Shown piece by piece: positions 43,108 to 47,187 of a stretch of 64,000 nucleotides of DNA (the stretch's first letter is position 1; every line of letters starts with the position of its first letter). Under the pieces are notes generated by a model. That model was not told where the DNA came from, did not search any database, and saw only the letters and a list, made by a program, of their open reading frames with translations. A program made the position numbers and the translations under genes. Source of the stretch: Devosia sp. 66-14 (lineage in GTDB: Bacteria > Pseudomonadota > Alphaproteobacteria > Rhizobiales > Devosiaceae); the NCBI GenBank assembly GCA_001899085.1, contig MKVB01000001.1, positions 959,333-1,023,332 of the forward strand. Direction: 5' to 3'.

Positions 43108-45747
43108 ATGCGCTTTCGAAACTGGCTCCTGACCGGCACCAGTCTCGCCGTTCTCGCATTGGTGCCGGGCGCCGCTTTCGCGCAGCAGGCCGAGTACCAG
43201 GCCCTGCAGGAAGCACAGGCTTCGGGCGACGCAGACGCGATCAGCAATGCCCAGCAGGCGCTGACCGATACCTGCATTGTGAACGGCTATTCCAGCGTGC
43301 AGGAATGTATCGCGGCCATCACCGGCGGCGGTCAGCCTGCTGCCAATTCGAGGGCAGACGAAGAAGCACGGGCCGCCGAAGAGGCGCGCGCGGCTGAGGA
43401 AGCCCGCGCCGCCGAGGAGGCCAAGGCCGCCGCTGAGGCCCAGGCTGCTGAGGAAGCCAGAGCGGCTGAAGAAGCCAAGGCCGCCGAGCAGGCGCGCGCG
43501 GCTGAGGAAGCTCGTGCTGCCGAGGAAGCCAAGGCCGCTGCAGACGCGCAGGCCGCCGCCGAGGCTGAAGCGCAGGCTGCCGCCGACGCCAAGGCCGCCG
43601 AGGACGCGCGCGCCGCGGAAGAAGCCAAGGCTGCTGCCGAGGCCCAGGCCGCCGCTGACGCTCAGGCTGCCGCCGATGCCAAGGCTGCCGCTGACGCACA
43701 GGCTGCCGCCGATGCCAAGGCTGCCGAGGAAGCCAAGGCGGCTGAAGACGCAAAGGCCGCCGAGGATGCCAAGGCCGCCGGCGATGCCCAGGCCGCATTC
43801 GTCGCCGACCTGCAGGCGGCGCTCGACCAGTACCAGGCCGCGCTGAACCAGGCCGCCGCCGGCGACTATGCCGGTGCCAAGCCCATCGCCGATGCCGCTG
43901 CCGCCCGCATCCAGGAGCTGTGCACCGCCAACGGCTACGCCGATATCAAGTCGTGCATCGGCCAGGATCTGCCGCCGCTGCCCGAGCCTGCCGCCGAACA
44001 GCCGGCGCAGGAACCGGCAGCCGAACAGCCCGCGACCGAACAGCCCGCGACCGAACAGCCCGCCACTGAACAGCCGACGACTGAACAGCCGGCCACCGAA
44101 CAGCCGACGACCGAGCAGCCTGCTGCAGAGCAGCCGGCAACCGAACAGCCGGCCGAGGCCGGCCCCACCGATGAGCCTGCCGATGCCAACGCCCCCGATC
44201 CGGTGGCCGCCGCGCAGGATCAGCTGGGCACGGCCGTCGAACTCTACAATGTGGGCGTCGGCCAGCTCGATGCCGGTGACGTCTCGGGTCAGTCGACCAT
44301 CGACGCCGCCAACAAGCAGTTCGCCACCATCTGTGCCGCTCTTGGCGTCGCCGATGTGGCGCAGTGCCTTGCCCAGTACGGCATCACCCTGCCCCCGATC
44401 CCGCAGGTAACGGCTCCGGCCGAACCGGCATCGACGCCGATCGCCGAGCTGCCCGGCGCGCAGGAAGCGGTGACCCCGCTGGCCGTCGAAGTGCTGCCCG
44501 AGACCGTTGCCCCCGAGGAAGCGGCGCCGGTGCTCGACAGCGCCAAGGACACCGCCAAGTCGGTGGCCGATGGTCAACAGCCGACCGAACAGCCGGCCGC
44601 ACAGGAGCAGCCGACCGCTCCGCCGCCGACCGACGACACCGCAGCCCAGGCCGACATCACCCCGGTCGAGGTGCAGTCGCTGGCCAAGCTGGAAGGCGAG
44701 AAGATCGCCGTCGACGCCCTGCCGCCCATCGAAGTGCCGCAGAACGTCACGATCATCAACAACATCACCAACGTGACGAACGTCACCAACGTCACCAACA
44801 ACACGACCAACGTCACCAACAACAACAATTCCAACAACAACAATAACAACAACAATGGTGGCCCGGGCCCACGCCCCGGCAACAACTTCACCAACTCGGG
44901 CTTTATCTTCCAGATCGGCATCAACCTGGTGATCTCGAACCCGGCCCAGGACTTCGACCGCATTCGCGACAGCAATGAGGATGAGGTCTACTACGAGCGC
45001 CTGCCGGGCGGTCGCGTCAAGGAGACCATCGAGCGCCCGAACGGCGTGCAGATCGTCACCATCCGCGACCGTTGGGGCAACGTGCTGAAGCGTTCGCGCA
45101 TCATGCCGGACGGCCGCGAGTACATCCTCGCCTACCAGGACGAGGACGATTTCGAGGTCGATGACGACTACTTCGGCAACTGGCGCGACCCGGGCGACGA
45201 CCTGCCGCCGCTGCGCCTGACCATCCCGATCCGCGACTACATCCTCGATGCCGGCGATGCCGACGAGGAAGAAGTCGAACTCTTCTTCCGTGAACCGCCG
45301 GTGGAACAGGTTCGCAAGATCTATACCATCGAGGAAGTGAAGCGTTCGGCCCGTATCCGTGACTCGGTGCGTCGCGTCGAAGTCGGCGGGCTGACCTTCG
45401 ACTCCGGTGCCGCCACCATCGCCCGCAGCCAGGTCGGCGCGCTCAGCAAGGTCGCCAACGCCATGCTGGCGATCCTCGAAGACAATCCGGGCGAGACCTT
45501 CCTGATCGAAGGCCACACCGACGCCGTGGGTTCGGACCAGTCCAACCTGATCCTTTCGGACCAGCGCGCCTCGACTGTCGCCCGCATCCTGACGGACTTC
45601 TACGACGTGCCGCCCGAGAACCTGGTCACCCAGGGCTATGGCGAGCGCTACCTCAAGGTGAAGACCGACAAAGCCGAAAAGCTGAACCGTCGCGTCTCGA
45701 TCAAGCGCATCACGTCGCTGATCACGGTTGCCGACAAGCGCAACTAA
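43108..45747 (+). CDS. Large OmpA-family protein with three CX10C modules and low-complexity linkers
   Basis: The 879-residue product has a signal peptide (1-26) and then a repeated module seen three times: Y30...C56-x10-C67, Y242...C272-x10-C283 and Y380...C409-x10-C420. Each has Y-x9-GD, 14-18 residues, C-x10-C. Between modules 1 and 2 lies an Ala/Glu-rich coiled-coil stretch (about 84-235) made of AEEA/KAA steps. Between 2 and 3 lies an EQPAT/EQPTT repeat (about 292-350). After module 3 come an acidic Pro/Gln-rich linker and an Asn-rich run (about 549-585), a conserved domain of about 150 residues, and a C-terminal OmpA peptidoglycan-binding domain (about 752-877; IEGHTDAVGS, LILSDQRASTVA). 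It should tie the outer envelope to peptidoglycan. Confidence 0.9.
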   Translation: MRFRNWLLTGTSLAVLALVPGAAFAQQAEYQALQEAQASGDADAISNAQQALTDTCIVNGYSSVQECIAAITGGGQPAANSRADEEARAAEEARAAEEARAAEEAKAAAEAQAAEEARAAEEAKAAEQARAAEEARAAEEAKAAADAQAAAEAEAQAAADAKAAEDARAAEEAKAAAEAQAAADAQAAADAKAAADAQAAADAKAAEEAKAAEDAKAAEDAKAAGDAQAAFVADLQAALDQYQAALNQAAAGDYAGAKPIADAAAARIQELCTANGYADIKSCIGQDLPPLPEPAAEQPAQEPAAEQPATEQPATEQPATEQPTTEQPATEQPTTEQPAAEQPATEQPAEAGPTDEPADANAPDPVAAAQDQLGTAVELYNVGVGQLDAGDVSGQSTIDAANKQFATICAALGVADVAQCLAQYGITLPPIPQVTAPAEPASTPIAELPGAQEAVTPLAVEVLPETVAPEEAAPVLDSAKDTAKSVADGQQPTEQPAAQEQPTAPPPTDDTAAQADITPVEVQSLAKLEGEKIAVDALPPIEVPQNVTIINNITNVTNVTNVTNNTTNVTNNNNSNNNNNNNNGGPGPRPGNNFTNSGFIFQIGINLVISNPAQDFDRIRDSNEDEVYYERLPGGRVKETIERPNGVQIVTIRDRWGNVLKRSRIMPDGREYILAYQDEDDFEVDDDYFGNWRDPGDDLPPLRLTIPIRDYILDAGDADEEEVELFFREPPVEQVRKIYTIEEVKRSARIRDSVRRVEVGGLTFDSGAATIARSQVGALSKVANAMLAILEDNPGETFLIEGHTDAVGSDQSNLILSDQRASTVARILTDFYDVPPENLVTQGYGERYLKVKTDKAEKLNRRVSIKRITSLITVADKRN

Positions 45748-46627: not shown

Positions 46628-46797
46628 GCTATCGGCGACAGCTTTTCTTCACTCCTTGCGGAGTGAAATCACGTTGAGACTCAGCATCTTGCAGGGTGCC
46701 GCTGAATCATTTCCGCAATCTGTCACGATTTCGGGAACAATTCCGACGGCTACCGAGTTATTGCCGCCATACGGTACTCAAACAAAGGAGCTTGATC

Positions 46798-47187
46798 ATG
46801 GCTGTCCCCGAACGCGATACCGTCTATTCGAGCGATGACGTCAACCGCACTGTCTATACCCGCGAGTCGAGCGCGACTGGCTGGTTTGTAGGCATCATCG
46901 TTGCGCTGGCGCTGCTCGCCATTGGCTATCTGGTGTTCTCTGCCAATTCCGGCCCGTCTTCGACCACGACGACGGTGAACAACACCCCTGCCATTGAAGC
47001 TCCGGCCACCCCGGCCCCGGCTCCGATGACTGAGGCCCCGGCGACTGGCACCGAGACCACTCCGATGGCTCCGGCCGCTGAGCCTGCTCCGGCTGCCCCG
47101 GCCGACGCCGCTCCGGCGACTGAAGCTCCGGCCGCCCCGGCTACCGAGGCTCCGGCCCCGGCGACTGAGGCCCCGGCCGCCAACTAA
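46798..47187 (+). CDS. Single-pass membrane protein with Ala/Pro/Thr/Glu-rich tail
   Basis: The 129-residue product has a short cytoplasmic part (MAVPERDTVYSSDDVNRTVYTRE), one membrane segment (about residues 28-48, GWFVGIIVALALLAIGYLVF) and a low-complexity extracytoplasmic tail of repeated APATEAPA-like steps (about 63-129). No family is recognised. AAGGAG lies 8 bases before the start. A strong terminator follows. The tail recalls the EQPAT linker in the OmpA-family protein, both perhaps spacers in the periplasm. Confidence 0.82.
   Translation: MAVPERDTVYSSDDVNRTVYTRESSATGWFVGIIVALALLAIGYLVFSANSGPSSTTTTVNNTPAIEAPATPAPAPMTEAPATGTETTPMAPAAEPAPAAPADAAPATEAPAAPATEAPAPATEAPAAN

Follow-up and report, generated by a model that had tools for sequence, protein, structure and literature searches.

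The stretch of DNA analysed here, referred to as the window, comprises 64,000 nucleotides of Devosia sp. 66-14 (contig MKVB01000001.1, positions 959,333 to 1,023,332), and its open reading frame at 43108-45747 on the forward strand encodes, by translation, a protein of 879 residues that carries three copies of a two-cysteine module and ends in an OmpA domain. The three copies are a true repeated module, homologous to one another, and in the genomes searched, as far as the context of the matches was checked, this module is restricted to one bacterial family, the Devosiaceae, and to genes of the OmpA family. We think it probable, at about 0.6, that the protein is a secreted, non-lipidated periplasmic tether that is anchored to peptidoglycan and bears three disulfide-stapled alpha-hairpin beads as protein contact units.

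Three copies of a two-cysteine module

The translation agrees exactly with the tyrosine, Gly-Asp (GD) and cysteine positions that an earlier note, made from the letters of the window, had claimed for the three modules. These read Y30-x9-GD(40-41)-x14-C56-x10-C67, Y242-x9-GD(252-253)-x18-C272-x10-C283 and Y380-x9-GD(390-391)-x17-C409-x10-C420, and the six cysteines are all that the protein contains. The NGY or similar triplet expected before the second cysteine is NGY in modules 1 and 2 and LGV in module 3, and the protein, at 879 residues, is long rather than giant. On the forward strand, module 1 (residues 27-75, 43186-43332) starts right behind the signal peptide, module 2 (residues 239-292) occupies 43822-43983, and module 3 (residues 376-429) occupies 44233-44394. 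A profile built from alignment A1 finds them with expectation values (E) of 4.7e-14, 5.2e-15 and 8.7e-17, which are not independent evidence, as A1 includes all three modules of the protein.

Independent evidence comes from a profile whose 38 modules were all taken from other genera of the family, the genus of the window contributing no row. This profile finds exactly three modules, with 35.8 bits at residues 27-74, 20.1 bits at 241-284 and 36.5 bits at 385-429, compared with best scores of 9.1 bits in 2000 global shuffles and 8.8 bits in 2000 local (20-residue) shuffles of the protein. The margin shrinks without the composition correction of HMMER (38.1, 32.8 and 44.7 bits in the same order, against 15.8 bits for global and 23.4 bits for local shuffles). 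In a simulation that scattered six cysteines at random over 855 residues, none of 500,000 trials produced three C-x10-C pairs and 203 produced two. The doubt raised in the earlier note, that the cysteine spacing might be accidental, here taken as an accident of low-complexity sequence, is settled against accident: the detection of all three modules by the independent profile refutes it, the random placement, the pairing of the cysteines and the conservation of the columns speak against it as well, and its remaining probability is vanishingly small.

Signature and pairing of the cysteines

Column counts were taken from 93 full modules at 43 loci, picked by C-x10-C and aligned without gaps on the first cysteine; they are what remains of 106 distinct module stretches after removal of 13 rows that are bare cores or lack the first helix. 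Relative to the first cysteine, glycine stands at +4 in 91/93 modules, alanine at -8 in 86, leucine, phenylalanine or isoleucine at -4 in 88, aspartate, serine or asparagine at +7 in 86, and leucine or isoleucine at +12 in 84. Of the Y-x9-GD motif proposed earlier, the GD pair holds up (67/93 modules, between -24 and -11) and the tyrosine is weak, present at its commonest column in 26/93 modules. A better signature would be helix-(S/G)GD-helix-C-x3-G-[YF]-x-[DS]-x3-C-[LI]-A. Alignment A1 itself holds 63 of 67 representatives, four without the first helix pair being omitted, six rows trimmed of signal-peptide letters and the first row lengthened; alignment A2 holds 58 of 67 rows.

In such module sets both cysteines are invariant by construction, since C-x10-C was the basis of selection. 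A less biased figure comes from the estimated mature chains of 44 family proteins with an assigned start, in which 200 of 207 cysteines sit in C-x10-C pairs and 41 of the 44 proteins have an even number of cysteines. The 44 are drawn from 54 eligible loci and contain two duplicate pairs, without which the figures become 192/199 and 39/42. Ten loci without an assigned start or with a partial sequence were dropped (L011, L019, L025, L026, L029, L033, L062, L064, L108 and L109), among them one with a single C-x7-C module (L029). The seven cysteines outside x10 pairs are, in our own reading, one in the signal peptide of L002, three due to a wrong start in L028, a lone one in L024, and two that form a C-x8-C pair in L107. 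We infer from this pairing and the fixed spacing that the protein of the window probably has three disulfides, one per module.

Predicted fold and search for a named domain

The module can be read as a first helix, a GD turn, a second helix that bears the first cysteine, a glycine turn and a third helix that bears the second cysteine. In the predicted second helix, the hydrophobic positions (-11, -8, -4, -1, 0 and +3) fall on one face, and 3.1% of shuffles match its moment at 100 degrees.

The claim that the module has no name has stood up to searches of Pfam, NCBIfam and PDB sequences, none of which returned a named match, and the module is apparently unnamed. For 63 modules, neither Pfam nor NCBIfam gave a useful match, the best E being 0.017 in each library; TPR_21 was the only weak Pfam match common to two of the 63 modules (best E 0.021), and no Sel1 family was among the 25 of 28 Pfam families listed for them. 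A PDB profile search up to E 10 returned 12 sequences and no Hcp structure; its best match, a neural haemoglobin at E 0.22, was judged to be chance. Twin CX9C (CHCH) domains have two C-x9-C motifs and thus four cysteines per domain; the module has one C-x10-C pair and does not belong to them. Among open-licence papers in PubMed Central, consulted mostly as titles or abstract starts and therefore weak evidence of absence, we recognised none that describes the module or an OmpA protein from Devosia. It is probably most fitting to class the module as a new variant, confined to one lineage, among disulfide-stapled helical hairpins, and not as a detectable member of the Sel1/TPR repeats.

Distribution of the module

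In the genome of Devosia sp. 66-14, five copies were found at E<1e-10, three of them in the 879-residue protein and two in a second gene of the OmpA family (region C6:355862, L002); nothing else in the genome was convincing, two further matches having E 0.96 and 1.3. At E<=0.001, 112 of 136 Devosiaceae genomes from 11 of 16 genera have module matches, one of them marginal (G083, E 9.7e-4). Among the 24 genomes without a match (four of them identified by exclusion, not by name), a close homologue of the C-terminal half is missing from 20 as well, their best E being weaker than 1e-10 or absent. Non-matching genomes that do have such a homologue are G012, G067, G074 and G089, and G012, G067 and G089 carry bare C-x10-C cores only.

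Wider searches used samples of the order, class and phylum, which overlap in part, and scored a limited set of first-pass candidates per genome. In the order, 12 of 297 genomes match, all 12 of them in the family of the window, and the 28 matches listed all adjoin OmpA-domain matches on the same contig when compared by eye; for the family search, the OmpA context holds as far as checked, among the matches listed. In the class sample (289 genomes, E<=0.01), only the genome of the window matches convincingly, and three other matches (E 0.0026-0.0096) were judged to be chance, their frames being read by eye as an efflux periplasmic subunit, a sugar-phosphate isomerase and a low-complexity protein. 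The one match among 398 genomes of the phylum sample is again the genome of the window. A core-only profile of 24 positions gave one weak match outside the family in the order (E 0.0075, in an 81-residue frame) and one in the genome of the window (E 0.083). The earlier note had hoped for repeats in other secreted alphaproteobacterial proteins. This expectation fails: in the genomes searched, and as far as the context of the matches was checked, the profile search found convincing matches only in OmpA-family genes of one family, and only two OmpA paralogues carry the module in the genome of Devosia sp. 66-14.

Layout of the protein

In order, the protein consists of a signal peptide, the three modules on low-complexity linkers, an asparagine-rich run, an unnamed conserved region and the C-terminal OmpA domain, all encoded on the forward strand. 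The signal peptide (residues 1-25, 43108-43182) ends in GAAFA|QQ, with the cleavage site placed by eye and a near-identical start in close orthologues. No lipobox cysteine is present at this AFA|QQ cleavage site, the first cysteine being residue 56, which speaks for a probably soluble, secreted protein located in the periplasm. The protein also scores under the cut-offs of the NCBIfam models Pal, YiaD and PA1041.

Linker 1 (43333-43782) consists of tandem repeats rich in alanine, glutamate, lysine and aspartate with periods of 18, 36 and 54 base pairs (bp), as found by a tandem-repeat scan and a comparison of linkers, and probably forms a long helix. Linker 2 (43984-44199) was seen in the same scan as EQPAT repeats with a period of 15 bp; a match of Extensin_1 to part of it (22.3 bits against a cut-off of 105) was read as a low-complexity resemblance. 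From its sequence, linker 3 (44395-44742) is rich in proline, alanine and glutamate and less repetitive. Residues 546-597 (44743-44898) form a run rich in asparagine, threonine and valine, evident from the sequence and the tandem-repeat scan. The low-complexity linkers described in the earlier note are therefore present, except that the asparagine-rich run falls after module 3 and not between modules.

The region ahead of the OmpA domain (residues 598-760, 44899-45387) is conserved in homologues in the order and unnamed: its roughly 160 residues match nothing in Pfam at E<=1 or in the PDB at E<=10. By eye it looks beta-rich, it is kept in many homologues of the order, and it may merit a family name of its own. 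The OmpA domain that the earlier note placed at the C-terminus is confirmed at residues 763-860 (45394-45687), where PF00691 scores 55.9 bits (E 5.7e-15), above the Pfam cut-off of 27.2. It contains the pattern GHTD and NLxLSxxRA, which we take to be typical of the OmpA family, and the presence of the domain predicts that the protein should bind peptidoglycan, a property established for this domain family.

Conservation of modules and linkers

Four pairwise comparisons with relatives from the genus (L006, L007, L009 and L010), with 49-66 codons per module, gave identities of 74-98% for the modules and ratios of nonsynonymous to synonymous substitution rates (dN/dS) of 0.02-0.27. The modules are under purifying selection. 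Over its alignable part, linker 1 has an identity of 43-80%, and only 74 of 150 residues align with L009. Its composition shifts within the genus, from Ala/Glu-rich in L007 to Pro/Glu-rich in L009 and L012. Its dS exceeds 1.3 in three of the four comparisons and could not be computed for the remaining one; repeat slippage or misalignment would be expected to give such high values. The linker arrays at 43363-43796 and 43994-44153 of the window vary in length and composition between related species.

Between genera, first modules share a mean identity of 0.34 with first modules (93 pairs) and last with last 0.31 (93 pairs), compared with 0.24 for first with last (186 pairs), all as ungapped means; within one protein, first and last modules have an ungapped identity of 0.32 (from 17 proteins, of which two belong to the paralogue group). 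Same-position modules are thus more alike between genera, so that positions hold a modest separate identity. The copy number of C-x10-C ranges from 0 to 6 across the 44 proteins compared.

Homologues, variant units and neighbouring genes

The C-terminal half has many homologues in the order: at E<=0.001, 177 of 199 genomes sampled have a match, many via the OmpA domain alone. From 80 loci outside the Devosiaceae, of which three were not recognised by the script, 77 homologues were obtained; none of the 77 has C-x10-C, and 66 have no cysteine in the estimated mature chain. This estimate is rough: no start was assigned for five, contig ends truncate a few more, and a wrong start accounts for the cysteines of some of the 11 that have them. 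Other N-terminal cysteine pairs outside the family are C-x8-C (L111, L112, L136 and L115), C-x5-C (L138) and C-x6-C (L219). One homologue from another family of the order (L118, genome G291) has two C-x17-C units of the form C-x7-GLS-x-[ED]-E-x4-C at mature residues ~8-26 and 89-107, the former near the signal peptide. Its loop G-L-S-x-[ED]-E resembles G-[YF]-x-S-x-[ED]-E of the Devosiaceae core, each cysteine lying about one helical turn further out. From this reading of two copies in one genome, the unit fits a stapled hairpin that was reached separately.

Within the Devosiaceae, most paralogues have the full module of three predicted helices and some have bare cores, C-x3-G-x6-C, of 20-24 residues. 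A divergent paralogue (L024, genome G007) has six bare C-x10-C cores about 30-50 residues apart and without the first helix pair. In L062 (genome G068), the available part holds four C-x10-C modules, three of them near-identical, in a genome with five module matches; this is apparently a recent expansion.

Upstream of the OmpA gene, on the other strand, lies a TauE-type gene. Of 50 loci inspected (many with little flanking sequence, some of them paralogues), 22 contain a match to it, which suggests an orthologous locus and not a function. At 46696-47187, the window encodes a small predicted protein that contains a hydrophobic segment and a TVNNT stretch and has a tail rich in proline, alanine and glutamate. 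No Pfam family matches it at E<=0.001; among 50 loci inspected around OmpA genes, many with little flank, 10 gave a match to it.

A model of the protein and its alternatives

Together, our data suggest a model in which the C-terminal OmpA domain would hold the protein to the wall, and the N-terminal half would be a chain through the periplasm made of disordered or helical linkers and three small folded beads. In each bead, helix 1 would lead through the (S/G)GD turn into helix 2, which would end at the first cysteine; a Gly-aromatic-x-Asp/Ser turn would then cap helix 2 and start helix 3, with the second cysteine in its first turn. One intramolecular disulfide per bead, introduced by the periplasmic Dsb system, would staple helix 2 to helix 3; such disulfides could form, as the genome encodes a DsbB homologue (E 8e-25). 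The beads would contact a partner in the outer membrane or envelope, or each other, at variable reach from the wall. Partner binding is the least certain part of the model, and by analogy with published hairpins, contact with an envelope partner would be the most likely use. OmpA-type wall anchors may matter more in Alphaproteobacteria, as Lpp homologues are reportedly absent from most of them, according to the accessible portion of a paper on DalA (PMC10470522). DalA is a peptidoglycan-binding outer-membrane lipoprotein, which the same portion does not call an OmpA-domain protein (PMC10470522).

Several observations weigh against this model. In ungapped column averages, the amphipathicity of the predicted helix 3 fails to reach significance (12% of shuffles are as high) and that of helix 1 is absent (78% of shuffles), and Pfam finds no Sel1 or TPR repeat at E<=1 in the whole protein. 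Amino-acid identity separates modules from linkers only in part, and the dN/dS of the linkers is also low where computable, so that selection by itself does not distinguish modules from linkers and the contrast lies in length and make-up. Lastly, the published hairpins act in tandem arrays, which makes a contact role for single beads an extrapolation.

The strongest alternative, to which we give odds well short of even, is that the modules serve as inert spacers or as knots that lend stability: disulfide-held, protease-resistant folded beads that set the length of the chain and have no partner. The variation in copy number from 0 to 6 and the exchange of Ala/Glu-rich for Pro/Glu-rich linkers within the genus are in line with this idea, but an inert spacer would have no need of the separate positional identity that is kept between genera (0.34 and 0.31 against 0.24), a modest effect given the first-last value of 0.32 within one protein. 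That the cysteines instead cross-link separate chains into a network within the periplasm is improbable: six cysteines per chain and a DsbB homologue would allow it, but intermolecular cysteines need no fixed spacing, and the x10 spacing that is nearly constant across copies and genera, together with the even counts in 41 of 44 proteins, fits intramolecular pairs. Still more improbable is a metal, haem or redox site. Two conserved cysteines in an exported protein might bring it to mind, but the pair is not a CXXC motif, and histidine, methionine or a further cysteine is not among the common residues of any column in the 93 modules.

A different question is whether the module shares descent with Hcp-type repeats, as a true Sel1/TPR repeat that has diverged, and is not an independent invention. 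The predicted topology and stapling resemble those of Hcp and Csep1, and single modules give weak TPR_21 and TPR_4 scores. Against common descent speak the absence of Sel1 from the Pfam families listed and of Hcp structures from the PDB profile search, the placement of single beads on long linkers in place of a continuous solenoid, and the confinement to one bacterial family in the samples searched. On balance we consider it unlikely, slightly more so than the inert spacer. As a tentative and rather doubtful proposal, the low-complexity N-terminal half of an envelope tether may have given rise to a new small domain within one family, and this domain may have reached the Hcp-type stapled hairpin independently, with the bare cores of some paralogues (L024 among them), the full modules and the L118 unit as surviving stages. 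If true, this would be the birth of a domain caught with its stages visible.

With this module, the annotation of Devosiaceae envelope proteins gains a domain family that is unnamed and clearly bounded. Linkers and beads vary independently in related species, which could make the roles of reach and of contact units in a wall-bound tether separable. If the module is a new invention and not a diverged Sel1/TPR repeat, it offers a case for studying the origin of small disulfide-held domains.

Comparison with known systems

The module is comparable to the Hcp or Sel1-like repeats (PF08238; HcpB, 1KLX; HcpC, 1OUV), whose parts follow a similar order to that predicted for the module. According to the accessible text of PMC3851747, the disulfide of Hcp repeats links each repeat at its end to the beginning of the one that follows, and hairpins of this type, in arrays, probably mediate contacts between proteins. 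The module differs from them in having no detectable Sel1 match, a fixed x10 spacing of its cysteines, a fusion to OmpA and an occurrence in one family only; moreover, it stands singly on linkers of about 50-270 residues, unlike the contiguous solenoid array of Hcp.

Csep1P of Campylobacter concisus has three hairpins stapled by the cysteine pairs 59/68, 97/106 and 156/165 (C-x8-C), and its sequence reveals no Sel1 repeat, as the accessible part of PMC12904459 describes. Both proteins thus appear to have alpha-alpha hairpins with near-spaced cysteine pairs and Sel1 undetectable from sequence, but Csep1P is one compact solenoid with a helical subdomain and another spacing, for which that part of the source describes neither an OmpA domain nor linkers (PMC12904459). 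In COA7 of the mitochondrial intermembrane space, modelled Sel1-like hairpins have disulfides between cysteines nine or eleven residues apart, according to the portion of PMC6505684 available; eleven apart, if it means the difference in position, equals C-x10-C. COA7 is a eukaryotic protein that interacts with MIA40 through disulfides; no sequence relation was seen, and no direct comparison was made.

At the wall-binding end, the protein resembles Pba (PA1041), a lipoprotein with an envelope role whose OmpA domain has measured peptidoglycan binding, as stated in the accessible text of PMC7947798. Both have an OmpA domain, but the 879-residue protein has no lipobox cysteine and a far longer, modular N-terminal half, and falls below the cut-off of the PA1041 model. 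With the OmpA-family homologues of the order that lack the module, it has in common the unnamed region, the C-terminal OmpA domain, or both.

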